Made by a program: the position numbers and the translations under genes | In this document: piece after piece, positions 36,133 through 58,119 of the stretch | Numbering within the stretch: the first letter of the stretch is position 1 | Layout: each line of letters begins with the position of its first letter | Notes under the pieces: generated by a model | What the model saw: the letters and a program-made list of their open reading frames with translations, nothing else | Database searches by the model: none | What the model was told of the DNA's origin: nothing | Origin: Desulfosarcinaceae bacterium | GTDB taxonomy: Bacteria; Desulfobacterota; Desulfobacteria; Desulfobacterales; Desulfosarcinaceae | Direction of reading: 5' to 3' | Assembly (NCBI GenBank): GCA_030066015.1 | Contig: JASJCL010000001.1 | Coordinates: 1 to 64,000 of the forward strand | Length of the DNA: 64,000 nt

Positions 36133-37521
36133 ATGCCGCAATATAGATACACGCTGGGCGGCCACACCTATCACTTCCGCGATCTCAAGACGGTCATGGC
36201 CAAGGCGAGCCCCCTGAAATCGGGGGATGGTCTGGCAGGCGTGTCGGCGACCAGCGAGGCCGAACGTTCCGCCGCCAAATTCGTACTGGCCGACCTCCCC
36301 CTGGCGAATTTCTTGAACGAAGCGCTGGTTCCCTATGAGACAGACGCGGTGACGCGGCTCATCATCGATACCCACGACACAGATGCCTTTGCGCCCATTT
36401 CCAGCATGACGGTAGGCGAGTTTCGCGACTGGCTACTGGCCTATGGAACCGATGCGGAGCGGCTGCGATCGGTGGCATCGGGCATCACGCCCGAAATGGC
36501 CGCCGCCGTTTCCAAATTGATGCGCAACCAGGATCTGGTCCTTGTTGCCAGTAAGATCGAGACCATTACCCGCTTTCGAACGACTGTCGGCCTGCAAGGT
36601 CACCTGTCCACCCGCCTGCAGCCCAACCATCCCACGGACGATCCCAAGGGCATCGCTGCCACCATCCTGGATGGTTTGCTCCATGGCATTGGGGATGCCG
36701 TCATTGGCATCAATCCCGTCGCCGACGATATCCAGGCCGCCACCCAATTGCTGCAATTGCTCGACGACTTGCGTCAACGCCACGAGATGCCGGTGCAAAC
36801 CTGCGTACTGACCCACATCACCAACACCTTGGCGATGATCGACAACGATGGGCCGGTTGATCTGGTGTTCCAGTCCATCGCCGGGACGGAGGCGGCCAAC
36901 AAGAGCTTCGGTGTCACCCTGGATCTGCTGCGGGACGCCCACCAAGGGGCCTTGTCGCTCGAGAGAGGCCGTGTGGGCAGCAATGTGATGTATTTCGAAA
37001 CGGGTCAGGGCAGCGCCCTGTCGGCCGAGGCCCATCACGATGTCGATCAGCAGACGCTGGAGGCGCGCGCCTATGCCGTTGCGCGGCAATATGACCCACT
37101 GCTGGTGAACACGGTGGTGGGCTTCATCGGCCCCGAGTATCTCTACGACGGCAAACAGATCATCCGCGCCGGTCTCGAGGACCACTTCTGCGGCAAACTG
37201 CTGGGTCTGCCCATGGGCTGCGATATCTGCTACACCAACCACGCCGAGGCCGACCAAAACGATATGGACAACCTGCTGACCCTGCTCGGTGCCGCAGGCG
37301 TCAACTTCATCATGGGCGTCCCCGGCGCTGACGACGTCATGCTGAACTATCAGAGTACTTCTTTCAATGACGCCAACTACCTGCGCCAATTGATGGGCTT
37401 GCGCTGCGCCCCAGAGTTCGAGACTTGGCTGGAGAAGATAGGCTTGATGGATGGGGCCCATCGTCTTCTGCCCCCCGACAACGCCACGCCCCTGCTGGGG
37501 TACCTGAAGGAGATGGTTTGA
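36133..37521 (+). CDS. eutB: Ethanolamine ammonia-lyase large subunit
   Basis: A 462-residue TIM-barrel subunit of the adenosylcobalamin-dependent enzyme that converts ethanolamine to acetaldehyde and ammonia. It aligns along its whole length with E. coli EutB: LKSGDGLAGVSATSEAERSAAK near residue 30, RLQPNHPTDDPKGIAA, GIGDAVIGINPV, YFETGQGSALSAEA, GPEYLYDGKQIIRAGLEDHF and MGCDICYTNHAEADQND. These include the substrate-binding Arg, Glu and Asp regions. It overlaps eutC. No eutA reactivase, shell proteins or aldehyde dehydrogenase genes are beside it. Confidence 0.94.
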   Translation: MPQYRYTLGGHTYHFRDLKTVMAKASPLKSGDGLAGVSATSEAERSAAKFVLADLPLANFLNEALVPYETDAVTRLIIDTHDTDAFAPISSMTVGEFRDWLLAYGTDAERLRSVASGITPEMAAAVSKLMRNQDLVLVASKIETITRFRTTVGLQGHLSTRLQPNHPTDDPKGIAATILDGLLHGIGDAVIGINPVADDIQAATQLLQLLDDLRQRHEMPVQTCVLTHITNTLAMIDNDGPVDLVFQSIAGTEAANKSFGVTLDLLRDAHQGALSLERGRVGSNVMYFETGQGSALSAEAHHDVDQQTLEARAYAVARQYDPLLVNTVVGFIGPEYLYDGKQIIRAGLEDHFCGKLLGLPMGCDICYTNHAEADQNDMDNLLTLLGAAGVNFIMGVPGADDVMLNYQSTSFNDANYLRQLMGLRCAPEFETWLEKIGLMDGAHRLLPPDNATPLLGYLKEMV

Positions 37522-38288
37522 CGAAACCGCCGGCGAAGAAAACGATGGGGTTGGAGCGGCTGCGGACCTTCACACCGGCGCGGATCGGCTTGGACAGAGC
37601 CGGCTCCAGTCTGACCACCCGGGATATCCTGACCTTCGATCGGGACCATGCGCATGCCCGCGACGCCGTGCACCTGCCCTTTGATGTGGCGCTGGTAACG
37701 GACGAACTGGGTGCCCGGCACCTAGCGACAGTGGCGGTGCACAGCGCCGCCAGAGATCGCGCCACCTACCTGCAACGCCCCGACCTCGGGCGAAAAGTGG
37801 ACCCGGCATCCAAAAAGCGGCTCCAAGAGGCCCGTCTGCAGGCGCAAGGCGGCGTCGACCTCGCTGTGGTTGTGGCAGACGGGCTGTCGACCCGCGCCAT
37901 TCACACCAACGCCGTCGCCTTTTTGGAGGAATTCCTACCGATGGCAGCGGAAAACGAATGGCGGTGCGCACCCATTGTTATCGCCTCTCAGGCCCGAGTG
38001 GCCATCGCCGACGAGATCGGAGAGCTTCTCGAAGCCCGCCTCAGCATAATCCTCATCGGCGAGCGACCGGGTCTCAGCGCGGCCGACAGCATGGGAATTT
38101 ACATCACCTATGCGCCCCGCCGGGGACGCACCGACGCTGAGCGCAATTGCATTTCCAATATCCGACGGGGTGGACTCCGCCACCAAGATGCCGCCGACCA
38201 ACTCGCCCGGTTGATCATGGGCGCCTTTCGACAACGACTGACAGGCGTGCGCCTGAAACCGGCGTCATCCCTCCAGCTGGAGTCGTAA
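37518..38288 (+). CDS. eutC: Ethanolamine ammonia-lyase small subunit
   Basis: A 256-residue small subunit that binds cobalamin with EutB. It starts LRTFTPARIGLDRAGSSL, matching the FTxARIxLGRxG start of the family, and ends with a GLRHQDAADQLARLI segment. A TTG at 37518, overlapping the eutB stop and preceded by AAGGAG, is the best start; an ATG at 37545 is the alternative. It is shorter than many EutC proteins, which carry an N-terminal extension. Confidence 0.88.
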   Translation: MTKPPAKKTMGLERLRTFTPARIGLDRAGSSLTTRDILTFDRDHAHARDAVHLPFDVALVTDELGARHLATVAVHSAARDRATYLQRPDLGRKVDPASKKRLQEARLQAQGGVDLAVVVADGLSTRAIHTNAVAFLEEFLPMAAENEWRCAPIVIASQARVAIADEIGELLEARLSIILIGERPGLSAADSMGIYITYAPRRGRTDAERNCISNIRRGGLRHQDAADQLARLIMGAFRQRLTGVRLKPASSLQLES

Positions 38289-40381: not shown

Positions 40382-41413
40382 TCAGAGGGCGGGTTTCCGA
40401 GCTTGCCGATCGACGGTGAATTCGCGCATACGGGAGAATAGATCGATACCGATCTGATCGTAGACATGCAGAAGATCCACGAGCACCCAGTTCTCCCGGA
40501 TGAGGCCGTTCTCGCAGCGCCAGAAATCCAGGCTGCGCATGGTGATGGCCTGATCCCCAGGGGCGATCCCCAGCCAGCCGTCGGCACTGATGGTGCAGCG
40601 CATGCCGGGCCAGGCGGTGATGGCCACGAAGAGACCTTCGGCAAAGAAATAGTGGGGCGCGTCGGGATTCATCCCCCGGTTGGGCATCGCCTTGAGGAAG
40701 GGGATCTGGTGCCAGTTGCGGAAACCGGAGATGCGGCGGTTGGTGCCGATCCCGGCCGGACCGTACCAGGTCATTTTGGGGTGCCAGTAGGCCGGCAGGT
40801 TCATCGCCTCGGGGCCGCCCTCGGCGTGCTTCTGCAGGCCGCCCAGCATATCGACGACCAGCTGCTGACTGGCGTCGGAGACGGCCGCGTCACGGGGACC
40901 GCTGAGCAGACCGTTCTGGGGGGCCGGCGAGGGGGCCATCCACTCCACGCCCAAACTGGGGGAGAGGGGCCAGGCGCGGGCCTGCATCATCACCTGGGGG
41001 ATGTCCCACAGCGCTTGCACCTCGACCACGCGCCCCGCTTCCATACGGTAAAACTCATGGTAGCGCATGGCGATGGGGTGATAGGTGGGCGGAATGTCCA
41101 GCCAGGGGTGTTCGAAGACGCCCACGTAATGGCCCCCACAGCCCACCCAGTTGCTGTCCGACTCGGAGGGCCCCGCCATGATGATGAAATCGCGCCGCTC
41201 CAGATCGGGCACCGCCGCGATGAGGGGTCGGTAGACAACCTCGTGGAGGGCATCCGGGCCAGTGAGGTCTTCGAAGGGGTGGGTGAAATGGATGGCGCAG
41301 TCGGGGGAGAAGATCTCCCTGAAGATCGACGGCAGCGCCTGCGCGTCCAGATCGTAAAGCGCTGCGGAGAGCCTGGCAATGACGGCTTTATTTTGCTGGT
41401 GGATATCCTGCAT
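40382..41413 (-). CDS. Tandem SnoaL-like (NTF2-fold) protein
   Basis: A 343-residue protein with two NTF2-like halves. The first has YHPIAMRYHEFYRMEAGRVV. The second has YWHPKMTWYGPAGIGTNRRI and LIRENWVLVDLLHVYDQIGID. It is clearly related to the proteins at 28568 and 55114. It is the last gene of the minus-strand island and is followed by a terminator. The first in-frame ATG at 41413 has GGGGG six bases upstream. Enzymatic activity is unknown; cyclase, dehydratase or isomerase roles are all possible. Confidence 0.77.
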   Translation of the reverse strand: MQDIHQQNKAVIARLSAALYDLDAQALPSIFREIFSPDCAIHFTHPFEDLTGPDALHEVVYRPLIAAVPDLERRDFIIMAGPSESDSNWVGCGGHYVGVFEHPWLDIPPTYHPIAMRYHEFYRMEAGRVVEVQALWDIPQVMMQARAWPLSPSLGVEWMAPSPAPQNGLLSGPRDAAVSDASQQLVVDMLGGLQKHAEGGPEAMNLPAYWHPKMTWYGPAGIGTNRRISGFRNWHQIPFLKAMPNRGMNPDAPHYFFAEGLFVAITAWPGMRCTISADGWLGIAPGDQAITMRSLDFWRCENGLIRENWVLVDLLHVYDQIGIDLFSRMREFTVDRQARKPAL

Positions 41414-41437
41414 CTTCAACCCCCAATAGCTTACCGT

Positions 41438-41848
41438 TCAGGACACGCCTGGCGGTGTCATTCCGTCCGTTGTTTCGTTTAGAAAATCGAGTTCGATCTG
41501 GATCCCGGCGGGATCGAAAAAGAACACCTGGGTCATCTCCAATTCGGAGATGTAAGCCGCTGTATAGGCGACCCGCCTGGCGGCAAGCCGATCGAGATAG
41601 GTCTTCAATCCCACGCAGCGAAAGGCGACATGGTTGAAGTGGGTGTTCTCAGCGGGGGCGACGGCGGCCTCATCGACCGTGAGGTGGACGATGGGATACG
41701 CCCCTTGGTAGAGCCACACGCCGGGGATGCCGAAATCGGGCCTTGGGCCGGGCGTCAGCGCCAAGACCTCCCGGTAGAACACGACCACGGCGTCGATGAC
41801 GGCCTGCGGCGCCCGGATGTTGTAATGATCCAGTCGGGTGATATGCAT
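41438..41848 (-). CDS. VOC (glyoxalase-fold) metalloenzyme
   Basis: A 136-residue single VOC protein. The metal ligands are likely His in LDHYNIR, His in THFNHVAFR and Glu in GIQIELDF. Family members include glyoxalases, epimerases and lyases on small hydroxy or keto compounds. Its position 62 bp after the corrinoid fusion gene suggests a late step in the island's pathway. The ATG at 41848 was chosen by the conserved start (MHITRLDHYN). Confidence 0.82.
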   Translation of the reverse strand: MHITRLDHYNIRAPQAVIDAVVVFYREVLALTPGPRPDFGIPGVWLYQGAYPIVHLTVDEAAVAPAENTHFNHVAFRCVGLKTYLDRLAARRVAYTAAYISELEMTQVFFFDPAGIQIELDFLNETTDGMTPPGVS

Positions 41849-41910
41849 TATGGTCACTCTCGGTCGCGTGGCGTTCGAGGCCGATCCCGATGCCACAGCT
41901 TAGCACAGCG

Positions 41911-43719
41911 CTATGACGCCACCTTCTCTTCCATGAACGCCTTGGCCTTGAAAACCCCTTCGCCGGCATCGTCGCAATAGGCGTCGGCGCCGATCTCATT
42001 GGCGAATCTCTCGGTCACCGAGGCGCCCCCCACCAGGATCTTGACCTTTTCGCGCAGGCCCTTCTCCTCCAGTGTGCGAATGACGATATCCATGGATTTC
42101 AGCGTCGTCGTCAGGATGGCCGACATGCCGATGAGGTCGGCCCCGTTCTCCACCGCCTCGATGAACTTCTCGGGGGGGCAGTCCACCCCCAGGTCGACAA
42201 CCTCGAAACCGGCGCCCTGCATCATGGTGATGACGATGTTTTTGCCGATATCATGAAGGTCGCCTTTGACGGTACCGATGGCGAACTTGCCCGAACTCTG
42301 AACGTCGGCGGCGCCGGCCAGCACCGGCTCCAGCACTGCCAGGCCGGCCTGCATGGCCTGGGCGCTCATGAGCATCTCGGGGATGAAGATGGTGCCCGCC
42401 GAGAACCGTCGACCCACCTCTTCAAGGGCGGGAATCATCACCTCCTGGAGCATCCAGCGAGGGTCCACCTCGTCCGCGACAGCCTGCTGCACCACCGGCT
42501 TGACCGCATCGAAATCACCGGCGATGAGGATTTCCTGGAGCTTCTGGAGATTGGGGCTCAGTTCTTCAGGATCTGATTCGGGCGCAGTCGAGGGTGTTTC
42601 TGCCCCGTCCGCCTTCTTGGCCTCCTTGATCCTATATGACTGGGGCCAGGGGTCGGCGGAGAGGGATCCGAGCTGATCGCGCCGGCCATACTTTTCGCAG
42701 GCCCGGATCATGGCGTCCAGGTTGGCCAGGGGGGTGCCCTCGGAGATATAGCCGCCGGCGGCGACGATGAGGCCCCCATCCCGGCCGATGAGGTGGATGA
42801 TGGACTTCACCGCCCGATCCACCTCTTCCGGCGTTCCTTCGCGCAGCACCTGCAAGGGCGGGATGCTGCCCATGAGGCAGACCCGGTCGCCGATGGTTTT
42901 CTTGATGTGCACCGGATCCACCTGGTACCCGAAGTGAAAGCACTGAATGCCCGCCTCGGCAATCCCCTCCAAAATGGCCGTGGCGTTGCCGTCGTTGTGG
43001 TACCAGCGCTGGCAGTCGGGGAAGGCGTTGTACACCTCCTGGTAGGCGGGCAGGATGAACTCCCGGAACTGCTCCAGACTGACGAAAGAGGCGATGTCGT
43101 CATTGAGGAGAATGCGGTCGAAGTATTTGGGGGGCACCTCGCTCTGCATGGTTTTGAGCCACTGGATCTCGAGCTCGGTGCAACGGCGTACCAGTTTGTG
43201 CACGAAATCGGGATTGGCGATGACGTCCATCATCAGGTGGCTCACCCCCCGCAACAGGGCGGCGTTGGCCCAGGGCGACATGACGGAATAGAAGTACACC
43301 GGCACGTCGAAGGGCACCTGCCCCCGCATGTAGCGGTAGTTGTGCAGCATGCGGGTCATGTAGCCGGCCTTCTCCACATCGGCCACGGTGAGCTTCTCCA
43401 GGTCCGCCTCGGTCTCCACGCACTCGCCCACCCAGGGCACGCCATCGTCCGTAAACGTGATGGGCGCTCCCATGCCGGCGGCTTCCGGGGCCGAGCCCAG
43501 ATCGGGCATAAACTGCGAGAGCCCGCTGAAGCGCTGGTGCATGTAGTTCTGGGCCTTGGTCATCAGCTCCGGCCGGTGGAAATAGTCGTAGAGGTCCGTA
43601 TCGGCATGACCGGCCATGAAGGGCCCGGTGGTGTGCAGAAATACCGGCACCTGATCCGGTACCTCCAGGGCGATGGCCTGTTGAATGCGCTCATCGTTGG
43701 CAGCGGCATCGTATTCCAT
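41911..43719 (-). CDS. UroD-type methyltransferase fused to a corrinoid-binding domain
   Basis: A 602-residue fusion. Residues 1 to about 365 have the uroporphyrinogen-decarboxylase fold used by corrinoid methyltransferases (PVFLHTTGPFMAGH; YHNDGNATAILEGIAEAG). After an acidic linker comes a cobalamin module: helical cap LQEILIAGDFDAVKPVV and a Rossmann domain with the lower-axial His near 489 in DLHDIGKN. Separate polypeptides are usual for the methyltransferase and corrinoid protein; here they are joined. The zinc-thiolate pattern of MtaA/MtbA is not seen: FHFGYQ and AAGGYI stand where Cys residues are expected. Methyl transfer is predicted; the donor is unknown. An ATG at 43731 is an alternative start. 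Confidence 0.85.
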   Translation of the reverse strand: MEYDAAANDERIQQAIALEVPDQVPVFLHTTGPFMAGHADTDLYDYFHRPELMTKAQNYMHQRFSGLSQFMPDLGSAPEAAGMGAPITFTDDGVPWVGECVETEADLEKLTVADVEKAGYMTRMLHNYRYMRGQVPFDVPVYFYSVMSPWANAALLRGVSHLMMDVIANPDFVHKLVRRCTELEIQWLKTMQSEVPPKYFDRILLNDDIASFVSLEQFREFILPAYQEVYNAFPDCQRWYHNDGNATAILEGIAEAGIQCFHFGYQVDPVHIKKTIGDRVCLMGSIPPLQVLREGTPEEVDRAVKSIIHLIGRDGGLIVAAGGYISEGTPLANLDAMIRACEKYGRRDQLGSLSADPWPQSYRIKEAKKADGAETPSTAPESDPEELSPNLQKLQEILIAGDFDAVKPVVQQAVADEVDPRWMLQEVMIPALEEVGRRFSAGTIFIPEMLMSAQAMQAGLAVLEPVLAGAADVQSSGKFAIGTVKGDLHDIGKNIVITMMQGAGFEVVDLGVDCPPEKFIEAVENGADLIGMSAILTTTLKSMDIVIRTLEEKGLREKVKILVGGASVTERFANEIGADAYCDDAGEGVFKAKAFMEEKVAS

Positions 43720-43798: not shown

Positions 43799-45670
43799 TT
43801 AAGCGCTTTTGGGAAGATACTGCTCCGCCCACTCGAGATTCAGCTCTACCAGGCGGCCCCGGGTGGGTACCCCCTCACCGTCCCAGCCCAGCATCTGGTA
43901 GTAGACTTCCCGCGAGTCTTCATGCTTACTGGGATCGTAGGTGACCCCCTTGAGGGGGCCGCTCTCGGGACTGGTGTTGAATCGCTTGGGCAGGACGTCG
44001 TCCGCCTTGGTGAAGCCTTCCCGCAAATTGAACAAGCGGCAGAGGGTGATGCCCCGCTCGACGGTCTTCATCAGGCGCCAGTGGCTCATCTTCATTCCGG
44101 TAATGTACTCCACCAGGTCGCCGATCTGCTTTTTCTTGTAGGGGATGAAGGCGCACAGCCCCAGGTAGTTGCACAGCTGACGCCAGAGGCCCACCTGATA
44201 GAGCATGCGGGCCTTGCGCGGGCTCAGTTCCAGGTTGGAGATCTCCTCGGGCACGTCGATCTCCTCCCAGGCGGGTAGATTACTGGCGACTTTCTCGTCG
44301 TGGATACCGGCCACATGATCCGGGCCGGAGGCGTGCACGCTATAGTGCAAGCCCATGCCCTGCTTGTAGCGCGGCTCGTGCATGGCGATCTCCTCGCCCT
44401 TGACGTGCATGGCGTATTCCATGGCGCCCTTGCCGATCCTCTCGGCGGCGATCTTGACCCCCTCGCCCAGCAGGGTGGCGAAAGTCCCCTCGCGTTTGCC
44501 GATCTTTTCGGTGAGGGTCAGCATGGCCTCCGCGTCGCCGAAACGCAGCGTCATGCCGTCCGTATCGGCGGTGGTGAGGATTCCCTCTTCGAAGAGTTCC
44601 ATGGCGAAGGAGATCGCCACGCCGGTGGAGATGGTGTCGATGCTGTAGCGGTTGCAGATCTCGTTGGCCTTGATGACGGCCTCGAGATTGTCCACCCCGC
44701 AGTTGCAGCCAAAGGCGACCAGGGTCTCATATTGCGGGGCGCCGTAGGCCGGATCCGAGTTCCAGGGCGTCTCCACCCGCACGCTGCGCTTGCATTTCAG
44801 GGGGCAGCGGTAGCAGGTGGGCCGCTTGACGATGTACCCTTTCTCGAACATGGCCTGAACGGCGATATTGGCGATGGTGGGAAAGGGCCCGCCCTTGAAG
44901 TTGTTGATCGGCATATTGCCTGTCTGCTCGTACTTGACCATGGTGGGACCGGTGCCCCACTTCCAGGGGAACTCGGTGATCTTTTTGTAGTTAGCCGTCA
45001 TCCACTTGCTGAGTTCCTGCACCTTCTCGGTATCGTGCGCGGGCGGGTCGATGCTGCCTTTGAGGGCCACCAGCTTGAGGTTCTTGGATCCCATCACGGC
45101 ACCCATGCCGGTGCGGCCGGCCGAGTGCATGACGTCGTTCTGGACCGAGGCGTAGCGAACGAGCTGTTCCCCCCCGGGTCCGATGGCGGCGGTGCGCAAT
45201 GCCTTGATCTCCAGTTCGTCCTGGACCTTGTTGACGGCATCGGCCACATCCAGCCCCCAGAGGTGCTGGGCGTCTTTGATCTCCACCTGGTTGTTCCGGG
45301 CCAGGATGTAGACCGGCTGGGCCGCCTTACCCTCCACGATGAGGGCGTCGTAGCCGCAGCGGCGCAACTCGGCGCCGAAGAACCCGCCAGCCTCGGCCTC
45401 GCCATAGGCGTTGGTCAACGGCGATTTGGCGCCCACCACATTGCGGCCGCTGCCCGGCACCTTGTGTCCGGTGACCGGCCCCAGGGCGAAGATCAGCTTG
45501 TTATCTTCGCCCAGAGGGTCGACGTTCGGTGCCATCTCGGTGAGCAGGGTGTGGACGATAAAACCGGTGCCCCCCAGAAAATGGGTATAGAAAGCATCAT
45601 CGGGGTGATCCTCGCTGATCTTGCCGGTGGTCAGATTGACTCTGAGAATGGTTTTCGTATAGCCCTTCAT
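43799..45670 (-). CDS. Aldehyde:ferredoxin oxidoreductase (tungsten/molybdenum)
   Basis: A 623-residue AOR-family enzyme that oxidises aldehydes to acids with ferredoxin as acceptor. It has the family start (ILRVNLTTGKISEDHP), the pterin-binding AGRTGMGAVMGSKNLK, the [4Fe-4S] Cys set YRCPLKCKRS plus a late NYLGLCAF, and CNCGVDNLEAV in the middle. Length is typical. AAAGGA precedes the ATG. Within the operon it could oxidise an aldehyde released by the aldolase-like protein. The metal and substrate cannot be read from sequence. Confidence 0.93.
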   Translation of the reverse strand: MKGYTKTILRVNLTTGKISEDHPDDAFYTHFLGGTGFIVHTLLTEMAPNVDPLGEDNKLIFALGPVTGHKVPGSGRNVVGAKSPLTNAYGEAEAGGFFGAELRRCGYDALIVEGKAAQPVYILARNNQVEIKDAQHLWGLDVADAVNKVQDELEIKALRTAAIGPGGEQLVRYASVQNDVMHSAGRTGMGAVMGSKNLKLVALKGSIDPPAHDTEKVQELSKWMTANYKKITEFPWKWGTGPTMVKYEQTGNMPINNFKGGPFPTIANIAVQAMFEKGYIVKRPTCYRCPLKCKRSVRVETPWNSDPAYGAPQYETLVAFGCNCGVDNLEAVIKANEICNRYSIDTISTGVAISFAMELFEEGILTTADTDGMTLRFGDAEAMLTLTEKIGKREGTFATLLGEGVKIAAERIGKGAMEYAMHVKGEEIAMHEPRYKQGMGLHYSVHASGPDHVAGIHDEKVASNLPAWEEIDVPEEISNLELSPRKARMLYQVGLWRQLCNYLGLCAFIPYKKKQIGDLVEYITGMKMSHWRLMKTVERGITLCRLFNLREGFTKADDVLPKRFNTSPESGPLKGVTYDPSKHEDSREVYYQMLGWDGEGVPTRGRLVELNLEWAEQYLPKSA

Positions 45671-45706: not shown

Positions 45707-46693
45707 CTAACTCCGAGTGTATTGTTTGTAAGTGGCGATGTACTCTTTGATGCCCTCTTCGATGGAAAACTGCGGTTCGTATCCCAGTTCTTTGCCAGCC
45801 AGCGAGATGTCGATGGTACCGCGCTTGGCCATATCCTTCTGCTCGAACTCGCTGAGTTTGGCCCCGATGGTGATCTCGGCGCCGGGGATGAGGTCTTTCA
45901 CGATGTTGGCAATCTCACTGCCCGAGTAGAGCGCGCCGCTCGTGGTCAGGTAGGTCCGGCTGATGAGATCCTCGTCGTTGGCGTTGAGGGCCCGCACGAC
46001 GCCCTGGACCGAATCTTTTACATAGGTGTAGTCCCGGGTCAGATCGCCGCCCGTGGTGAACTCGGTGGGCGTGCCGCTCAAGGCGTTTTCGATCATGTCT
46101 TTGATGAACATGGAGTAGCGCATCCCCCAACCGTAGACGCCGGAGAAGCGCACCGAGGCGTAGCTGACCCCGTTGTTGTTGCAATAGGCCTGGCCGATGA
46201 GTTCAGTAGCGGCCTTGGAGGAGCCGTAGTGGCTGCCGTGACCGCTGCCGGGGATAAACATGGGGTGGACCTCGTCCATGGGCTCGTACTGCTTCTTGGG
46301 GTAGACCCCGATGCTGGAGATGTTGACCACCCGTTGCATCTCCATAAGTCGGGCCGTCTCGAGGACGTTGATGGTCCCCATGACATTGGCCTGATAGGTG
46401 AAGTAGGGGCGCCGGTTGCTCTCGGCGGGGTCGAAGAAGGCCGCCATGTGGACGATCTTGTCAATCTTCTCTTCCCGGGTCACTTTGATAAGATCGGGCA
46501 GGTCGAGGATGCTGGCCCGCTGGTAGACCAGGTTGTCGCCCTGGACGGCTTCGTCCAGAAAGTTCTGCAGCACCGGGCTCGGCGGTGCCAGATCATAGTT
46601 GACGACCCGGTCGCCGTCCTCCAACAGGGCCTTCATCAAGTACACACCGATAAAACCGGAACCGCCGGTGATCATGACTGTCTGGTTGCTCAT
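45707..46693 (-). CDS. NAD-dependent epimerase/dehydratase (extended SDR)
   Basis: A 328-residue extended SDR. The NAD site is TGGSGFIG at residues 9-16, the catalytic Tyr-x3-Lys is in SHYGSSKAA, and the fold continues with RFSGVYGWGMRY and DLTRDYTYVKDSVQGV. Such enzymes act on nucleotide sugars or free sugar acids (for example uronate dehydrogenase-like or epimerase). It has 44 bp to the upstream Ldh2-type gene and 36 bp to AOR, so it is part of the same operon. Confidence 0.88.
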   Translation of the reverse strand: MSNQTVMITGGSGFIGVYLMKALLEDGDRVVNYDLAPPSPVLQNFLDEAVQGDNLVYQRASILDLPDLIKVTREEKIDKIVHMAAFFDPAESNRRPYFTYQANVMGTINVLETARLMEMQRVVNISSIGVYPKKQYEPMDEVHPMFIPGSGHGSHYGSSKAATELIGQAYCNNNGVSYASVRFSGVYGWGMRYSMFIKDMIENALSGTPTEFTTGGDLTRDYTYVKDSVQGVVRALNANDEDLISRTYLTTSGALYSGSEIANIVKDLIPGAEITIGAKLSEFEQKDMAKRGTIDISLAGKELGYEPQFSIEEGIKEYIATYKQYTRS

Positions 46694-46737: not shown

Positions 46738-47778
46738 TCAGCCGAGGCGCAGATCACTGCCCGCCTCGGCCAGCAGTTCATCCACCAACTCCACGGTCCC
46801 TTCGTCCAGGTCAATCCCTTCGGCGCGGCTGAGCGCTTCCTTGGCATTCTCGATTTCGCCGGGCAGATAAAGCTCGTCCACGTTCTGAGCCTTCTCGATA
46901 TCCTTGATCTCGACAATGTACTTGCCGAGCAGTTGCTTGAGCAGGGTGGGATCGATGAAGGCCGAGGGGTCGATGGCCAGGAAGAAAGCGCCCACCCCGG
47001 TGGCGCCGGTCAACTTGTGAAACGTCTTCACCGCTTTGCTGTACTTGGAGCCGGAGAGGACACCGGCCAAGATGTCCACGGCGATGGCCAGCGCCACCCC
47101 CTTGGGCCCGCCGATGGGCATGAGGACACCCTTCAGTGCTTCGGCCGGATCCTCGGTGGGGTTGCCGTCGGGCCCGAAGGCCCAGGTGGGCGGGATCGGT
47201 TTGCCCAGGCGCTCGGCTTCGCGGATCTTGCCACGGGCCACATTGCTCACCGAGAGGTCCATCACCAGGGGATATTCGCCGTCGGTGGGGAAGGCCAGGC
47301 TGATGGGATTGGAGCCCAACACCGGCTCCATCCCCCCCCACAGGCTGATGGAGGAAGCCGCGTTGCAGGCGCAGATGCCGATCATCTCCTCGCTCGCCGC
47401 CATCATGGGGTAGTTGGAGAGAAAGCCGATGTTGTTGGTGTTGCGCACCAGGGTCATGGCGATCCCGTACGCGCGGGCGCTTTCGATGGATTGCTGCATG
47501 GCCAGGGCGGCAGCCACCTGGCCGATGCCGTTCTTACCATCCACCAGCGCATTGGCCCGGGAGACCTCGACCACCGCCGGGTTGTCGGCGATCTCCATCT
47601 GGCCGGCATTGATGCGGGCCGTGATCATCTTGAGGTATTTGACCCCATGGCTGTGGATACCGCGGGCATTGGCCCGCACCAGGCTCTCGGCCACCGTGCG
47701 GGCCGCGTCATCCGCCACGCCGGTTCTGGTGAGGAGTTCCACCACGGCATTGAAGATCGTTTCGTAGCTGAGTTTCAT
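46738..47778 (-). CDS. Malate/L-lactate dehydrogenase family (Ldh2) oxidoreductase
   Basis: A 346-residue NAD(P)-dependent 2-hydroxyacid dehydrogenase of the Ldh2 fold. It has the characteristic ANARGIHSHGVKYL near residue 40 with catalytic His, VRNTNNIGFLSNYPMMA, LGSNPISLAFPTD and GGPKGVALAIAVDIL. Relatives act on malate, sulfolactate, ureidoglycolate and 2,3-diketogulonate, so the true substrate is open. The RraA-like gene lies 6 bp upstream. The gene probably processes a 2-hydroxy- or 2-ketoacid in this island. Confidence 0.88.
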   Translation of the reverse strand: MKLSYETIFNAVVELLTRTGVADDAARTVAESLVRANARGIHSHGVKYLKMITARINAGQMEIADNPAVVEVSRANALVDGKNGIGQVAAALAMQQSIESARAYGIAMTLVRNTNNIGFLSNYPMMAASEEMIGICACNAASSISLWGGMEPVLGSNPISLAFPTDGEYPLVMDLSVSNVARGKIREAERLGKPIPPTWAFGPDGNPTEDPAEALKGVLMPIGGPKGVALAIAVDILAGVLSGSKYSKAVKTFHKLTGATGVGAFFLAIDPSAFIDPTLLKQLLGKYIVEIKDIEKAQNVDELYLPGEIENAKEALSRAEGIDLDEGTVELVDELLAEAGSDLRLG

Positions 47779-47784: not shown

Positions 47785-48456
47785 TTATTCCTCTATCAAG
47801 CCCAGCGCCGCGAACTTCTGGTCCAGTTTGTTGAACGCGACACTGCTGATGCCACCCTTGAGTGTTTCGGCCTTGACCACCTCCGCCTCCACGCGCTTGA
47901 CCGACTTGGTGTAGACCTCCTCGATCCGTTCGCGGGCAACGATGACCATGCCGTCGTCGTCGCCCAGGATGAGGTCGCCGGGGTTGACGAGGGCGCCGCC
48001 GAAGATGATGGGAAAGTTGACCTTGCCCAGGGTGTTCTTCACCGTACCGGCGATACAGAAGCCGCGGCAGAAAACGGGCCATCCCGTGGCGCCGAGCTCT
48101 TCCGAGTCCCGCACACAGGCGTCGATGGCCAGGCCGCCGATCTTGCGGGCGATGGCCGAGGTCGTCATGAGATCGCCCCAATAGCCGGCCTCATAGTAGC
48201 CGCCCGTGGTGGCCACGATGATGTCGCCGGGGGCGGCCTTTTCCAGGGCCTTGTGGAGCATCAGATTGTCTTTCGGGTGGCATTCCACCGTGAAGGCGGG
48301 ACCGCAAAGCTTGTGTCCCCGCCGGTTCGGCTTGATGGCGCTGGCCACGAAGCCCCGGCGGCCGGAGGCCTCATAAACGGTTGCCACGGCCAGTTTGCTG
48401 AAATTCGCGACCATCTCCGCGGATGGTCGCTCGATCTTGGTTATGACGTGGGTCAT
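47785..48456 (-). CDS. RraA-like / HMG-type class II aldolase family protein
   Basis: A 223-residue trimeric-fold protein. The divalent-metal and pyruvate-binding signature is visible in GLAIDACVRDSEEL (the conserved Arg-Asp pair). The segment YYEAGYWGDLMTTSA matches the GxxWGxLxxxxA block of 4-hydroxy-4-methyl-2-oxoglutarate aldolases, making an aldolase or decarboxylase more likely than an RNase E inhibitor. In the operon it could cleave a 2-keto acid to pyruvate and an aldehyde. AAGGA lies eight bases before the ATG at 48456. Confidence 0.83.
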   Translation of the reverse strand: MTHVITKIERPSAEMVANFSKLAVATVYEASGRRGFVASAIKPNRRGHKLCGPAFTVECHPKDNLMLHKALEKAAPGDIIVATTGGYYEAGYWGDLMTTSAIARKIGGLAIDACVRDSEELGATGWPVFCRGFCIAGTVKNTLGKVNFPIIFGGALVNPGDLILGDDDGMVIVARERIEEVYTKSVKRVEAEVVKAETLKGGISSVAFNKLDQKFAALGLIEE

Positions 48457-48471
48457 CTTCACTTTCCTTTT

Positions 48472-49908
48472 CTATTTTTTCCCGTTCATCACCACGCAGC
48501 GGATACCCAGCAGCCCGCAGACATGTTCCAGCTCCGCGACCCACTCACCGGGAACGGCACAGATGTGGTTGGAGGCGAACTCGGCCACGAAAACGTCAAT
48601 GTCCACGTCGGTCTTCACAAAGGCGGTGGGCAGCTGGTGGGCGCCGCGGGCGGCCACGAAAGCCTCGTACTCCGCCTGAGGCAGTTCGATCGCCTCGCCC
48701 TGGAAGAGGGCCATGGTGTACGCGCCCGCTTTGCGGTAGAGACGGCCGACGGTCAGCGGACCGGGAGCGCAGGTGAGGTAGGTGGTGCCCCCCCCGCCGG
48801 GCCGGATGGCGGGCATGATGTTGACCCGCTTGAGATTCTCGGCCGCATCGCTGCTGCGCCCGGCGAACCAGGTGCACATGCCGCCGCAGTTGGGCAGGTA
48901 AAAAGTATTCGTCTCGTCATTGATATAGGAGACATCGGCGAACATGGTGGGCAATCCGCCGGAGACCAGCTTCATGATCTCAGAGGTGAGCCCGGCGTCA
49001 GCGTCGGCCTCGCAGGCCATGACAGTGGTCTCCTTTTCACCGTCAGCGTCGTAGGGGCCCGGCAGCAGGGCGGCACTGAGGCATTGGGGTACGTAGTGGT
49101 TGGTGAGATCGGGCATGCACTTGATGGCCACGAAGTCCAGGGAGCGCTCCCGAATGATACGCTTGGTGGCCAGGTAGCAGCGCACCTGATGGGCCAGCTT
49201 GTCGGGAACCAGCCCCTGGTCGTTGTAGGCGATCTTGCCCATGTGCTGGGCCAGCCAGTCCATGGTCTTCTGCGTATCTTCGTCAGAGACCTCTTCTGCC
49301 AGGCGGATGATCTCCAGTTGATCGATATGTTCGGCATCCACCCCGAATTGGCTGCGCCACTGCATGGGGTCGAAGGTACCCGTATCGATGCCCAGGCTGC
49401 GGCCGCCGAACATGCCGAAATTGCGCCCTCGCAGGCGGGCCACGGCGGCAGCGGCACGGATAAAGGGCAGGCATTTCTCTGCCACCGCCTGCGGGTTGAC
49501 CCCGTCGAAATTCTCCCGCACCCGCAGGTGGGCGAAACCGATCTGATCCAAGGCGCCGGCGGCACCGAAAAGGCCCACCGAACCGTGGGTACCGGCCTCT
49601 TTGTTGGACAGCAGGATGGTGGGCAGGTTGACCTTCTGGATCGCCCGCAGAACCATGTTGGGCGACACCCAGCAGGGCACATGGGCCACCAGCGCCTCTA
49701 CGCCGGCGGCAAGCAGCTCTCCGGTCTGGGTGTCGATCTCCTCTATCTTGCGGGCCACTGCATCGAAGCAGACCAGGTCCAACGCCTGCTGTTTGAAATA
49801 GTCGACAGCCTTCTGATGGCGGGGCTCGGTGAGCCCCTGGAAGAGCTTGCCCCACTCGTGATCGCGGGCGTCGCCGAGGGTCATCAGGCCTATTTTGGGA
49901 GGATTCAT
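48472..49908 (-). CDS. L-fucose/arabinose isomerase-like protein
   Basis: A 478-residue protein of the fucose-isomerase-like fold. The start (PKIGLMTLGDARDHEW) and the C-terminal segment with CEADADAGLTSEIMKLVSG and PTMFADVSYI carry the expected metal-binding Glu and Asp. The third ligand, a His in an HCG-like motif of FucI, appears as Asn in LPNCGGM, so metal binding or the reaction may differ. It probably acts on a sugar or sugar derivative, but isomerase activity is not certain. It lies 28 bp after the SDR gene. Confidence 0.78.
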   Translation of the reverse strand: MNPPKIGLMTLGDARDHEWGKLFQGLTEPRHQKAVDYFKQQALDLVCFDAVARKIEEIDTQTGELLAAGVEALVAHVPCWVSPNMVLRAIQKVNLPTILLSNKEAGTHGSVGLFGAAGALDQIGFAHLRVRENFDGVNPQAVAEKCLPFIRAAAAVARLRGRNFGMFGGRSLGIDTGTFDPMQWRSQFGVDAEHIDQLEIIRLAEEVSDEDTQKTMDWLAQHMGKIAYNDQGLVPDKLAHQVRCYLATKRIIRERSLDFVAIKCMPDLTNHYVPQCLSAALLPGPYDADGEKETTVMACEADADAGLTSEIMKLVSGGLPTMFADVSYINDETNTFYLPNCGGMCTWFAGRSSDAAENLKRVNIMPAIRPGGGGTTYLTCAPGPLTVGRLYRKAGAYTMALFQGEAIELPQAEYEAFVAARGAHQLPTAFVKTDVDIDVFVAEFASNHICAVPGEWVAELEHVCGLLGIRCVVMNGKK

Positions 49909-49936: not shown

Positions 49937-50710
49937 TTAGTTTACTTCTCGGTCAAAGGACTGAATCATGCGTCCGCCATCGGGATAGATGGTCTGGCCC
50001 ACGAAGAAGGAGCTGTCCTCCGATGCGAGGAAGACGGCCGTGCGGCCAATCTCGCTGCACTCGGCCACCCGCCCGATGGGCGTGCGCCGCAGGATGGTGT
50101 CCATCAGTTCCTTGTTGTGACCCACGCGCTTCATCAATTCGGTGTTCACGGCCCCCGGGCCGATGCCGTTGACCCGAATGCCGTGGTCGATGAGGCCCAG
50201 TCCCATCACCTTGGTGAGCTGGTTGATACCGCCCTTGCTGGTGGTGTAGGCCACCTGGTTTTTCAAACCCAGAACCCCCATCACCGAGGACATGTTGATG
50301 ATGACGCCGCCCTCCCCTTGTTTGACCATCTGCTTGGCCGCCGTCTGTCCGCAGAGGAAAACGCCCTTCAGGTTGACGGCGATGACCTGGTCCCACTCTT
50401 CCTCGGTGACGTCCAAAAATTCCGCTTTGGCATTGATGCCGGCGTTTGAGACCATGATGTCCACGCGCCCGAAGCGCTCGACGGTCTTGTCGACCAGGTT
50501 CTGAACTTGATCGCTCTGGCTCACGTCACACTGAACGAACATGGCCTCCTGGCCCTGGTCTGCGATGGCCTTGGCGGCGGCCTGTCCCAGATCTTCGCTG
50601 CGGCCGGTGAGGACCACCTTGGCCCCCTCTTCGGCGAACGCCTCGGCAATGGCAAGGCCGATCCCCTTGGTGGCGCCGGTGACGACGGCGACTTTGTCTT
50701 TGAGTTTCAT
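49937..50710 (-). CDS. Classical SDR dehydrogenase
   Basis: A 257-residue short-chain dehydrogenase. The cofactor motif is TGATKGIG (residues 12-19), NAG appears as VSNAGINAK, catalytic Ser is in NMSSVMG and Tyr-x3-Lys in AYTTSKGG. Arg/Gly in TGRSED after beta-2 suggests NADP preference. It likely oxidises a sugar or alcohol in this pathway; glucose-dehydrogenase-like and 3-oxoacyl reductases look alike. The ATG follows AGGAGTAGATAG. Confidence 0.9.
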   Translation of the reverse strand: MKLKDKVAVVTGATKGIGLAIAEAFAEEGAKVVLTGRSEDLGQAAAKAIADQGQEAMFVQCDVSQSDQVQNLVDKTVERFGRVDIMVSNAGINAKAEFLDVTEEEWDQVIAVNLKGVFLCGQTAAKQMVKQGEGGVIINMSSVMGVLGLKNQVAYTTSKGGINQLTKVMGLGLIDHGIRVNGIGPGAVNTELMKRVGHNKELMDTILRRTPIGRVAECSEIGRTAVFLASEDSSFFVGQTIYPDGGRMIQSFDREVN

Positions 50711-50858: not shown

Positions 50859-51680
50859 TTAGTTGGTCTGCGGTTTGGTCCCCACCGGATACTTCTCCAT
50901 GATCTCGGCCACCAGTTCGCTGATGTGATCCACTGTGCGGGTGACGACTTTTTCACCCTTCTCGCGGGTGGCCTTGGTGGGATCACCCACCACGCCGTTG
51001 CCGCCCTCGGCGAGGTCATACTTCTCGGGACGGGCGAAGGTGCCTTCGAAGTGGTACATCTGACCCGGTTTGGGCATGGCGCCCGGCGCGATTTTCCACT
51101 TCGGATCTACCAATGGGTGACCGTCGCCCGGAGCGGCAAGACGCATGTCGACGAGTTCTGGGTAGAGATAAAGGGCCACACTGGTCTCGGCCTCGTCGGC
51201 GTGCCACATGTGGTCTTCGAGGACATCCTTGTCGTCGCGCAGGAAGTCGTACCAGTGCAGGGACAGGACGAAGTGCCCCTCGATGCCCAGCTTGTGCACC
51301 GCCACGATGGTGGAGGAGACCTGGCCGTGGGCAGAGAGGATAATGAATTTGTTGTAGCCGGATACCGAGGCGCCGCGGACGATGTCGCACAGCATCTCGA
51401 TGTGGGTCTCGAACCGCAGCGGGATGGTGCCCGGCACGCCCCAGTGGTGATAGGGGTGGGAGCCATACATGGGACAGGGCAGGATCATGGCCCCGCTCTT
51501 CTTGCCGATCAGTTCGGCGATCCCCATGGCATTGCTGGCGTCGGAACTGGTGGGGCAGTGGGGCCCGTGCTGCTCGATGGCGCCGATGGGCAGGATCGCG
51601 ACGTCGCAGACGTTCTTGGCGTACTCAACAACGATGGGAGCGGCATTTTCGTGGAACCAGACAGATTTTCTTTCAGTCAT
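50859..51680 (-). CDS. Creatininase-family amidohydrolase
   Basis: A 273-residue metallo-amidohydrolase. Metal ligands of the family are present in AIEQHGPHCPTSSD (Glu, His, Asp, residues about 34-47) and HADEAETSVALYL (Glu). The central NGHGGN motif is SAHGQVS here, keeping one His but changing the surroundings, so the substrate pocket is probably altered. Creatininases, 3-dehydro-sugar and mycofactocin-maturation enzymes belong to this family; cyclic amide or lactone opening is a fair guess. GGAGAA precedes the ATG. Confidence 0.85.
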   Translation of the reverse strand: MTERKSVWFHENAAPIVVEYAKNVCDVAILPIGAIEQHGPHCPTSSDASNAMGIAELIGKKSGAMILPCPMYGSHPYHHWGVPGTIPLRFETHIEMLCDIVRGASVSGYNKFIILSAHGQVSSTIVAVHKLGIEGHFVLSLHWYDFLRDDKDVLEDHMWHADEAETSVALYLYPELVDMRLAAPGDGHPLVDPKWKIAPGAMPKPGQMYHFEGTFARPEKYDLAEGGNGVVGDPTKATREKGEKVVTRTVDHISELVAEIMEKYPVGTKPQTN

Positions 51681-51805: not shown

Positions 51806-52705
51806 TCAAAAAAGGGCTTGTCCCGGCACCCGGACCCGAATCCGATAAAGGGTCGTGGATGCCGTGATGTACAATGTCTTCAAATCGGGATCTCCCCAGG
51901 TGAAGTTGGCCGCCTGTTCGGAGACCCGGATGCGGCCCAGAAGCGTTGCGTCCGCATCGTATACGTGGACGCCCCCGGGGCCGGTGCAGAAGAGGATGCC
52001 GGCGCTATCCACCTTCATGCCGTCGGCCACCCCCACCTCCGCTCCGATCAGGTCGGCCCAGAGGCGGCCGTTGATCAAGACGCCCTCATCGCTCAGGTCG
52101 AAGGCCCGGATATGCTGACGGGCCGTATCGTTGATGAAGAGGATCTTCTCATCCAGCGAGAAGCAGAGGCCGTTGGGCTTTTCGAAGTCGTCCACTAGAA
52201 GGGTCAACTCGCCGCTGACGGGGTCCAGTCGGTACACCCCCTGGAAGGCTAACTCCTGGGCCCGCTCCACCCCGAATTTGGGCCCACGTCCGGAGTTGGG
52301 ATCGGTGAAGTAAATCATCCCGTCCGATGTGACCACGATGTCGTTGGGGCTGTTGAGTTCCCGTCCCTGATAACGGCTGGCCAGAGTCTCGATCCTGCCG
52401 CCGTCCGCCGCGCTGCGGGTGACCCGGCTGGTGGCGTGCTCGCAGGTGAGGATGCGCCCCTCCCGATCGTAGGTATTGCCGTTGGCCATGTGGCTGGGCT
52501 TGCGGAGGACGCTTACCGCACCGTCGGCTTGCCAGCGGTAGATGGTGTCGCCGATGATGTCGCTGAAGGTCAGATGATGGTCCCTGGGGTGCCAGATGGG
52601 ACCTTCGATGAAGGCGAAGCCGTTGGCGACCACTTCCAAGCCGGCATCCGCATGGACGACGGAGAGAAAACGTTGATCATGGATCTCTATGACGTTCTTG
52701 GACAT
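51806..52705 (-). CDS. SMP-30/gluconolactonase family protein
   Basis: A 299-residue six-bladed beta-propeller lactonase. Metal ligands can be placed at Glu in FIEGPIWHP, Asn in NSPNDIVVTSDG and Asp in GVADGMKVDSAG. It would open sugar lactones made by a dehydrogenase in the same operon. The ATG at 52705 follows GAGGGCAG; the frame extends 48 codons further into the M19 gene without similarity. The 125 bp after its stop is one of the larger gaps of the operon. Confidence 0.87.
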   Translation of the reverse strand: MSKNVIEIHDQRFLSVVHADAGLEVVANGFAFIEGPIWHPRDHHLTFSDIIGDTIYRWQADGAVSVLRKPSHMANGNTYDREGRILTCEHATSRVTRSAADGGRIETLASRYQGRELNSPNDIVVTSDGMIYFTDPNSGRGPKFGVERAQELAFQGVYRLDPVSGELTLLVDDFEKPNGLCFSLDEKILFINDTARQHIRAFDLSDEGVLINGRLWADLIGAEVGVADGMKVDSAGILFCTGPGGVHVYDADATLLGRIRVSEQAANFTWGDPDLKTLYITASTTLYRIRVRVPGQALF

Positions 52706-52779
52706 CTGCCCTCTTTCGGATAACGGCCAGTTAAGGTCTCGGCCGCCGATAGGCCCGCCGATCCATCCAGCGGCGCCGG

Positions 52780-53952
52780 TCACCCGGATCGCGTGTCGAG
52801 TAGCTGCCGACACACGCGCAAAAAGTTTTCTCCCAGAATCAGGCGGCACTCCGCCTCGCTGTAGCCATGGGCCAACAGGGCGGCCGTGATGCCCGGAAAC
52901 GCTTCATGCTGCTCGATGCCGGCGATAAAGTCACTGGACCGCCGGCCGTACCAAATCCCTTCGATCCAACCCGGGTACTTCTCGCTTTGGGTGGGGGTCT
53001 TGCGGTCGAAGGTACAGAAATCGGGGCCCCGGTTGGCGAATCCCCGCACCACCTCCCGGTTCATCGGGGTTTGATAGGCGTAAAAGTCCGGACCCAAGGC
53101 CACATGGGCGATTCCCACCAGATCGGCGATGTGATCCACATGGCGCAGCAGATCTCCGATGTCGGGATGGGCCTTGTCCTGGTTCACCAGCGCCGCCCAG
53201 AAACTGATGCCCACCACACCTCCCCGCTCCGCGATGGCCCGGATGCGTCGATCGCTAATGTTGCGGGGATGGTCGCAGACGGCTGCGGCGGCACTGTGGC
53301 TGTCGATGACGGGACGGTTGGTCAAGGCGATGAGGTCGAAAAAACCAGGGTCGGATAGTTGGGCTGTATCGATCATCATGCCGAGACGCTCGGCCTCTGT
53401 GACGACCTGTTCGCCAAAACCGGTGAGCTTTCCCCGGGTGCGGGTCTGGGCCACGCCATCGGCCAGACGATTGCGGCCGTTGCCGGTGAGCTGCAGCCCG
53501 CGCAGTCCCATGCGATACAGGCTCCTCAGGGAGGCGCGCAGGTTGAGGTTCGGCTTCCCGTGAAGCACGCGCCCGCCGGCGATGGTGGCCAGGATGGCGA
53601 ATTTGCCCGCCTGCAGGGCGCGGTCGATATCGGAGGCGTCTCGGCAGAGGATGAAGCTCTCACACCCGGCCTCCAGTTCGCTGTTGAGCACGTCCAGCTT
53701 CTTATGGGCATCCCAGAAGCGCAGCTCGGAAGCGCTGTACATCACCTGGGCCACATGGTCGCCCCCTACCGCCAGTTGGACGAGGTTCACCCCCTGCCCT
53801 TCCAAAACCGGTTTGTAGACCCGGTCGAAGACGTGGACCTCGCCCCGCACGGCCGCATCCTCCTGCAGGAGGAACTCGTAGACGTAGGCATCCAGGATCT
53901 CCTGGTGGGTGTCGGCCACGATGGCCGTTTTATGCAGTTCTACGGCATCCAT
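52780..53952 (-). CDS. Degenerate M19 (membrane dipeptidase-like) protein
   Basis: A 390-residue homologue of renal dipeptidase with the whole barrel but altered metal site. The His-x-Asp pair is His-Gln-Glu (ADTHQEILD), the bridging Glu of the xEGGH motif is replaced (ATIAGGR), the third-ligand His is Gln (IDTAQLSD), and only the last His (PVIDSHSAA) is kept. It is therefore likely to be inactive or chemically different. It directly follows an intact paralogue, suggesting a heteromeric pair. The ATG at 53952 follows GAGAG; a GTG at 53973, next to the upstream stop, is possible. Confidence 0.84.
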   Translation of the reverse strand: MDAVELHKTAIVADTHQEILDAYVYEFLLQEDAAVRGEVHVFDRVYKPVLEGQGVNLVQLAVGGDHVAQVMYSASELRFWDAHKKLDVLNSELEAGCESFILCRDASDIDRALQAGKFAILATIAGGRVLHGKPNLNLRASLRSLYRMGLRGLQLTGNGRNRLADGVAQTRTRGKLTGFGEQVVTEAERLGMMIDTAQLSDPGFFDLIALTNRPVIDSHSAAAAVCDHPRNISDRRIRAIAERGGVVGISFWAALVNQDKAHPDIGDLLRHVDHIADLVGIAHVALGPDFYAYQTPMNREVVRGFANRGPDFCTFDRKTPTQSEKYPGWIEGIWYGRRSSDFIAGIEQHEAFPGITAALLAHGYSEAECRLILGENFLRVCRQLLDTRSG

Positions 53953-53974
53953 ATCCAGCTCTCGCGCACCCACC

Positions 53975-55113: not shown

Positions 55114-56121
55114 CTAGCCGCTTACGATCCTGCGGGTGCGCTCCAAAATGTCCAATCCCTGCATCTTCAACCAGTGGGGCAGATCGATGAGGACCCAGTT
55201 CTCGGCCAGCCTATCGCCTTCCCGGCGGTAGATATCGACCACCCGCATGTCGGCCGATATGCGGCTGCCGGGCAGCCCCAGAAAGCCCCCCACAGGGGTG
55301 TTGGTCAGATTGGGCCAGCCAAAAAATCCGCCGTACCGACCTTCGGCCAATCGACAGACGTGGCCGTTGAAGACCTTGTCGGTGAGCCCGGCACGAAACG
55401 GATACTGGTGCTGTTGTTGGAAGCCGTCAATGGTGTATGTGGCACCGATACCGGCGGGCCCGTACCAGAGCATGTCGTCATGCCAGGTTTTGGCCAGCAC
55501 CTCGGGGGGCGGGCAGTCGTTGCCGGTGCAGTTCAGGTCGTTGAGGTCGCCCAGCATGCGGTTGATGAGGTCCAGGGTTTCGGCCCCCTCGGCCGGATCC
55601 TGCGGGTCGAGGAGCAGCCCGTCGTGGGTGAGCGGCCCGGGATAGACAAAGCTGGCGCCGGTCTGGGGCGGCAAGGGATTGATCCCCACCTGGTGCATCA
55701 CGCCGATGATGTCGCAGAAGAAGCCGGATCGCGAAATCTTGCCGTCTTGGATGCAGTTGAAATCGGCATAGCGCAGAAGGGCGATCTTGCGGGTGGCCGG
55801 TATCCCCAGCCAGTCGCGCTCCAGGAGCCCCATGAAGTGGCCCATACTGATCACCCAATCTGTGCCGTCGATTTCACTGGTGCCGGCCATGAAGACGTCC
55901 TGCCGCCGCTGCGGCTTGGCCCAGGCGTTTTTAAACGGTCGCCAGAAGGATTCCACCACCGCCGCGGCGCCGTCCTGTTCACCCCAGGGATGGACCCCAT
56001 ACCAGTGGTAATCACCGGTGGTGTAGGTTTCCAGCACCTTTCCGATGGTGTCCATAGACGCCGTCTCCAGCGCCTGGTAGTACTCTTGGATCAGTGCTTT
56101 GTGCGCCTGATAGGCCCCCAT
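55114..56121 (-). CDS. Tandem SnoaL-like (NTF2-fold) protein
   Basis: A 335-residue protein with two NTF2-like halves (about 5-150 and 180-325). The first contains GMLERDWLGI-type GHFMGLLERDWLGIPA and LRYADFNCIQDGKIS. The second contains TWHDDMLWYGPAGIGATYTI and LAENWVLIDLPHWLKMQGLD. It is a close relative of the protein at 28568; both genes sit directly beside transporter genes (7 bp after the permease here). This repeated linkage suggests it handles the imported compound. Confidence 0.78.
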   Translation of the reverse strand: MGAYQAHKALIQEYYQALETASMDTIGKVLETYTTGDYHWYGVHPWGEQDGAAAVVESFWRPFKNAWAKPQRRQDVFMAGTSEIDGTDWVISMGHFMGLLERDWLGIPATRKIALLRYADFNCIQDGKISRSGFFCDIIGVMHQVGINPLPPQTGASFVYPGPLTHDGLLLDPQDPAEGAETLDLINRMLGDLNDLNCTGNDCPPPEVLAKTWHDDMLWYGPAGIGATYTIDGFQQQHQYPFRAGLTDKVFNGHVCRLAEGRYGGFFGWPNLTNTPVGGFLGLPGSRISADMRVVDIYRREGDRLAENWVLIDLPHWLKMQGLDILERTRRIVSG

Positions 56122-58032: not shown

Positions 58033-58070
58033 ACGGTCCTCACACCACGTGAAGTTCGGGTTTCAGGATC

Positions 58071-58104: not shown

Positions 58105-58119
58105 CGTCAATTGCCGAGG

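Follow-up and report, generated by a model that had tools for sequence, protein, structure and literature searches.

Domain structure of the fused gene

The 64,000-nucleotide window analysed here (contig JASJCL010000001.1, positions 1 to 64,000, of the Desulfosarcinaceae bacterium assembly GCA_030066015.1) contains, at 41911–43719 on the minus strand, an intact open reading frame of 602 amino acids in which a UroD-type methyltransferase and a corrinoid protein are joined in one chain. The original prediction had described both modules and an intact DLHDIGKN motif while leaving the strand unstated, and both are confirmed. From its N terminus the protein consists of a UroD-type (TIM-barrel) methyltransferase domain (residues 9–344, 42688–43695; PF01208, 148.7 bits, E = 2.7e-43), a linker that varies in alignments (residues 345–391, 42547–42687), a corrinoid helical cap domain (B12-binding_2, residues 392–464, 42328–42546; PF02607, 8.8e-20) and a corrinoid Rossmann domain (B12-binding, residues 478–591, 41947–42288; PF02310, 1.7e-24), all encoded on the minus strand and with all three Pfam matches well above their cut-offs. 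The Rossmann domain carries the DxHxxG...SxL...GG signature as DLHDIG, SAIL and GG, with the cobalamin lower-ligand motif DLHDIGKN at residues 487–494 (42238–42261). Translation is assigned to the ATG at 43719; a GTG 12 codons upstream is a possible alternative start, and the closest ortholog (L005, at the same place as G031:C189) begins at the same methionine, which favours the ATG.

The same fused domain order is found in L005, which is 76% identical over its full length, and in two further proteins at approximately 50% identity (L006 and L007), and the corrinoid-binding motifs are invariant across the four orthologs. These orthologs exclude a chance reading frame or an artefact of assembly or fusion, and because they keep the domain order at both levels of divergence, the fusion is genuine and not of recent origin. 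The close fused form occurs in 2 of 389 sampled genomes of the order, and one further genome among 395 in the phylum encodes an unfused relative (E = 5e-160).

The closest solved chains to the corrinoid half, 1y80 and 7xcn, are stand-alone corrinoid proteins, and this half stays below the equivalog cut-offs of MtgC, MtbC and MtaC. For the UroD half, profile alignment identifies MtaA of Methanosarcina mazei (4ay7) as the nearest solved structure. The structure prediction proposed alongside the original claims was informative for the fold only: two AlphaFold2 models based on just four sequences have low confidence (pLDDT 58 for the full protein and 57 for the UroD domain), which is too poor for active-site geometry, while a Foldseek search with the UroD-domain model returns MtaA 4ay7 first. 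The UroD superfamily also includes decarboxylases, and HemE structures are likewise found by the profile; a function of the UroD half other than methyl transfer (decarboxylation, for instance), combined with a regulatory or vestigial corrinoid half, nevertheless seems very improbable given the conservation of the corrinoid-binding motifs, the corrinoid gene that still adjoins the unfused relatives described below, and a HemE model score (TIGR01464) of 37.3 bits against a cut-off of 302.95, by which HemE identity was rejected.

A conserved operon of sugar-type genes

From 63052 down to 40382, about 20 genes follow one another on the minus strand, most of them closely spaced, and the gaps flanking the target gene are 14 bp and 79 bp. 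The upstream end is formed by a LacI-family regulator (62003–63052), assigned by profile and by comparison with G031, a genome of another family that is the only other sampled genome of the order with the operon. It is followed by a carbohydrate-type ABC transporter (56129–61924, 74–96% identical in G031) with two permeases and an ATPase, assigned by reading the sequence, and two SBP_bac_1 binding proteins (58150–60758), assigned by profile. Further genes encode a tandem SnoaL-like protein (55114–56121, 70% identical in G031), two peptidase-M19 (membrane dipeptidase) family proteins (52780–55111), an SMP-30/gluconolactonase (51806–52849), a creatininase-family hydrolase (50859–51680), a glucose-1-dehydrogenase-like SDR (49937–50710), an L-fucose-isomerase-like sugar isomerase (48472–49908), an RraA-like/CHA-type aldolase (47785–48462), an Ldh_2 dehydrogenase of the malate/sulfolactate/ureidoglycolate type (46738–47778), an NAD-dependent sugar epimerase/dehydratase-like protein (45707–46693) and an aldehyde:ferredoxin oxidoreductase (AOR; 43799–45670, 76% identical in G031). 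Downstream of the fused gene by 14 bp lies a glyoxalase-superfamily protein (41438–41896), and a second tandem SnoaL-like protein (40382–41419, 62% identical in G031) ends the operon. The enzymes listed without an identity value were assigned by profile. For the creatininase-family hydrolase the nearest named model is IolN, a 3-dehydro-scyllo-inosose hydrolase, at 154.1 bits and thus below the cut-off of 245.

Apart from the genes for the M19 and glyoxalase-superfamily proteins, every gene of the operon is matched in the G031 cluster, at 58–96% amino acid identity. One ABC permease (56129–56965, minus strand) is 95.6% identical to its counterpart, compared with 67–87% for most of the operon, which may reflect either unusually strong conservation or recent exchange. 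By its gene content, the operon looks like a system that imports and degrades a sugar- or polyol-like compound, and import of a methylated sugar or polyol would explain the presence of a demethylase within it. Nothing on point for this combination of genes was found in the literature searched.

The SnoaL-like proteins, approximately 330–350 amino acids long in the window, recur at 28568, 35109, 40382 and 55114, four are encoded in L005:60-3734, and they accompany the cluster in both genomes. A second directon, on the plus strand, holds another ABC transporter, a LUD protein and SnoaL-like proteins, and ends with EutB and an overlapping EutC-like reading frame (ethanolamine ammonia-lyase, 36133–38288). 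As a pointer to methylated ethanolamines, EutBC was set aside, having no match in the examined stretches of the G031 cluster.

Zinc-ligand positions and the HND/HNE...G branch

Alignment to MtaA, which had been proposed as a check on the original prediction, finds a conserved zinc cysteine at neither site. The H-I-C of MtaA falls on His241-Asn-Asp243 of the window protein in the profile alignment to 4ay7, so that the histidine is kept and the cysteine is replaced by aspartate; this Y240-H241-N242-D243 stretch (42991–43002, minus strand), at the position of the H-x-C zinc motif of MtaA and CmuA, is invariant in six relatives. At the second zinc cysteine, A321-G322-G323-Y324 (42748–42759, minus strand) aligns with APGCG of MtaA and places Gly323 at the position of the ligand. 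The original prediction was thus right that both cysteines are gone, and right in naming AAGGYI as one of the sites, but it mistook FHFGYQ (residues 261–266) for the other. F261-H262-F-G-Y265 (42925–42939, minus strand) lies opposite LSVEE of MtaA, and holds no ligand position; its histidine, H262, is conserved throughout the closest clade but not beyond it. Metal binding through His241 and Asp243 is conceivable.

Replacements of this kind have precedents. UroD-type S-methyltransferases carry His-Cys-Cys, while in UroD-type O-methyltransferases one or both cysteines are swapped for carboxylates or non-coordinating residues (PMC10418091), and CdmB is a UroD-type chloromethane MT-I that works without zinc (PMC13222342). 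With Asp243 and Gly323 at the cysteine positions, the window protein has the pattern described for the O-demethylases. CdmB, of which only the C-terminal half could be aligned, lacks the HND motif and has SFQGEHD at the His/Asp site; as it has neither residue there, its active site differs from that of the window protein.

The proposal of a new type of methyltransferase is therefore only partly novel, since the loss of the cysteines in O-demethylases and the zinc-free CdmB are already published; what stands is a well-separated branch. In a small set of 25 UroD-type proteins, chosen mostly by similarity, excluding MtvB, OdmB, VdmB, MtoB and the Mts proteins and drawn as a midpoint-rooted tree, the proteins with HND/HNE...G are set apart from the rest by a split with a bootstrap value of 100. 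They comprise the window protein, L005, L006, L007, G733, G551, Gemmatirosa, G415, G311, G358 and G082, and the branch is without a characterized member. The HxC...C proteins form another group (support 97) that includes CmuA and MtaA as well as two further proteins encoded in the genome of the window protein. In the unfused branch members of G733, G551 and Gemmatirosa, a separate corrinoid gene adjoins the UroD gene, and G733 has a corrinoid protein at 55% identity; these three show the unfused state of the branch. Because fused proteins fall in different branches of the tree, UroD and corrinoid modules were probably joined on several occasions, and in the window protein separately from CmuA. 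The fused proteins of G094 (L010; HSD...N) and Vescimonas fastidiosa (L065:4608-6347; HAD...Y) lie outside both main groups. The genome of the window protein, which has DsrA and looks like that of a sulfate reducer, nevertheless encodes a stand-alone HIC...C protein (G000:C99:6258-7247) that clusters with MtaA (support 95). The gene settings within the branch, read by eye, include a sulfatase-like gene and a TTT-type transporter gene near L006, and a TRAP transporter with a BKACE-like gene near L007; as these contexts differ from the operon in the window, branch members may serve several substrates.

The closest known parallel in domain layout is the CmuA/CmuB chloromethane methyltransferase system of Methylorubrum extorquens CM4. 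CmuA, which is seen as one chain in L063, likewise carries a UroD-type MT-I on the N-terminal side of a corrinoid module, within approximately 600 amino acids, and works with a separate tetrahydrofolate-side MT-II, as we propose for the window protein. It differs in its HTC...PGC motif and its place in the HxC...C group, whereas the window protein has HND...AGG and belongs to the other branch; the two share only about 28% identity over 468 amino acids, and the TIGR01463 score is 105 bits against a cut-off of 235.4. Identity as a CmuA ortholog was rejected on these grounds, and the window protein would instead work like CmuA together with its tetrahydrofolate-side enzyme while standing outside the CmuA family. 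MtsD, MtsF and MtsH of Methanosarcina, which appear in the reference list of PMC10418091 as fused corrinoid/methyl transfer proteins, can be likened by description as a UroD-superfamily methyltransferase and a corrinoid protein in one polypeptide; unlike the reaction envisaged here, they are methanogen methyl-sulfide enzymes that use coenzyme M. The claim that the two proteins are normally separate overlooks CmuA and these Mts fusions.

MtaA and MtbA, soluble methylcobamide:CoM methyltransferases, share the UroD fold, but they are stand-alone enzymes with a His-Cys-Cys zinc site that produce methyl-CoM. The window protein is fused and lacks the cysteines, and scores 87.1 bits against the MtaA equivalog cut-off of 400 and 59.2 against the MtbA cut-off of 600; a plain MtaA-type enzyme was thus rejected. 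MtvB, OdmB, VdmB, MtoB and CdmB, of which only CdmB was aligned, are MT-I enzymes of the UroD superfamily that work with a corrinoid protein and a pterin-side MT-II, as we suggest for the window protein, but their corrinoid protein is separate. A zinc-free dehalogenase or aryl-ether demethylase resembling CdmB or MtvB, with the sugar operon coincidental or partly unrelated, appears unlikely. CdmB shows that such a zinc-free MT-I exists in this fold and is detected by the profile, and the fused CmuA is itself a chloromethane dehalogenase; against this, CdmB has a different His/Asp site, the surrounding operon is conserved, and no genes for aromatic or halogenated compounds were recognized in it.

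Proposed methyl transfer to tetrahydrofolate and catalytic cycle

The original prediction held that no other methyltransferase is nearby to pass the methyl group on. This is correct for the 64-kb window, in which the pterin-binding methyltransferase of the L005 locus has no match, but not for the wider genomic context. In the orthologous operon of G031, a methyl-tetrahydrofolate:corrinoid methyltransferase (MtgA/PRK07535) directly follows AOR and passes the curated NF005719 cut-off (352.8 against 259 bits), and a 71% identical copy is encoded in the genome of the window protein itself (G000) on contig C7 (L040/L059). In a Desulfobacterales MAG, L006:7149-9770 encodes MT-II, UroD and corrinoid modules in a single reading frame of 873 amino acids, the first 265 residues of which are a methyl-tetrahydrofolate:corrinoid methyltransferase (NF005719, 343.6 against 259 bits). 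By itself, this triple-fusion chain may make up a complete demethylase. MtgA/PRK07535 is known as a separate enzyme, and its fusion in cis with a UroD-type MT-I was not found in the literature searched. The cobalamin-dependent methionine synthase MetH, whose model matches two stretches of L006, also joins a methyl-tetrahydrofolate domain to a corrinoid module, but its second methyl domain belongs to the homocysteine S-methyltransferases rather than to the UroD type, and the domain order differs.

The same genome encodes three RACo-type activases, one of them on contig C20 with CODH/ACS and an AcsE-like gene, as well as DsrA and 26 matches to the MTTB family. As in O-demethylase systems, a tetrahydrofolate-side MT-II is thus linked in L005 and L006 and, together with an activase, available in the genome itself. 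By its gene content, the host looks like a sulfate reducer specialized in methyl groups, for which methyl-tetrahydrofolate would have a clear route onward.

These observations suggest that the window protein is probably a substrate-side MT-I joined to its own corrinoid carrier, serving catabolic demethylation with transfer of the methyl group to tetrahydrofolate. The reading is drawn from the missing zinc cysteines, the corrinoid module in cis, the MT-II that adjoins or is fused to orthologs, and the catabolic operon, and it agrees with the original suggestion of a substrate-side rather than a methyl-CoM-type enzyme. On the other side of the balance, the MT-II lies outside the window and may serve MTTB systems only; in G008 (L071), a homologue sits with a corrinoid protein and, as judged by eye, an MTTB-type protein, so that the copy on C7 may be shared between systems.

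Two other assignments of the UroD domain can be weighed against this evidence. As an MT-II, it would take methyl groups that an unlinked MT-I donor has loaded onto the fused corrinoid and hand them to a thiol acceptor, in the manner of MtaA/MtbA, or would catalyse both half reactions as MtsA does. MtaA is the nearest solved structure and the 26 MTTB-type proteins are possible donors, but both cysteine ligands that mark S-methyltransferases are gone (PMC10418091), the scores are far below the MtaA, MtbA and mtaA_cmuA cut-offs, and the tetrahydrofolate-side MT-II linked or fused in orthologs would be redundant, which makes this assignment improbable. The same chemistry could also be reversed, carrying methyl groups from methyl-tetrahydrofolate through the corrinoid to a biosynthetic acceptor: methyl transfer by corrinoids can in principle run either way, and L006, as a self-contained methyl-tetrahydrofolate/corrinoid/UroD protein, has a MetH-like modular layout. 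We consider this direction very unlikely in an operon of catabolic content (importers, lactonase, aldolase, dehydrogenases and a LacI regulator) and a genome rich in demethylation genes.

The domains, substitutions, operon, orthologs, triple fusion and gene presence are read from the sequence, and the catalytic steps that demethylation by the window protein would require can be envisaged as follows. A RACo-type activase would reduce the bound cobamide to Co(I). The methylated substrate, imported by the ABC transporter of the operon, would bind in the UroD barrel, where its methyl–heteroatom bond would be activated by a site based on His241 and Asp243 instead of a His-Cys-Cys zinc site. Transfer of the methyl group to Co(I) would yield methyl-Co(III) and the demethylated product, the latter being degraded by the dehydrogenases, lactonase, isomerase, aldolase and AOR of the operon. 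A separate PRK07535/MtgA-type methyltransferase, here encoded on another contig, would then move the methyl group to tetrahydrofolate, and methyl-tetrahydrofolate would enter the Wood–Ljungdahl pathway, most likely running in the oxidative direction to support sulfate reduction.

Our tentative choice of substrate, a guess from the operon content, is an O-methylated sugar, sugar acid or polyol; sugar-type neighbours are no proof of it. More speculatively, the HND/HNE...G proteins could make up a class of their own among UroD methyltransferases, removing the methyl group of O-methylated sugars or polyols through a His/Asp site, with the fused forms, two-domain in the window protein and three-domain in L006, acting as all-in-one anaerobic sugar O-demethylases; as a whole this proposal is doubtful. 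Such enzymes would be the corrinoid counterpart of the aerobic route, in which, as outlined in PMC10033563, a P450 demethylates 6-O-methyl-galactose. No relevant report of methylated sugars or inositols being demethylated by corrinoid enzymes turned up in the literature searched.

Fusions of UroD and corrinoid modules and replacement of the cysteine ligands are already known; the interest lies in the uncharacterized HND...G branch with its own fusions, the three-domain relative and the rare operon. If the proposed functions are correct, they would add a branch of corrinoid demethylases together with an active-site rule that distinguishes HND...G from HxC...C, L006 would unite the three enzymes of a methyl relay in a single chain, and sulfate reducers would have an oxygen-free route to methylated carbohydrates, a step with no corrinoid enzyme in the literature searched.

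Four of the 26 MTTB matches contain a single in-frame TAG (C27:19900-21306, C86:25028-26434, C86:83-1495 and C23:66008-67420), and a gene for the pyrrolysine biosynthesis protein PylB scores above its cut-off at C86:7513-8550. The host sulfate reducer thus probably makes pyrrolysine.
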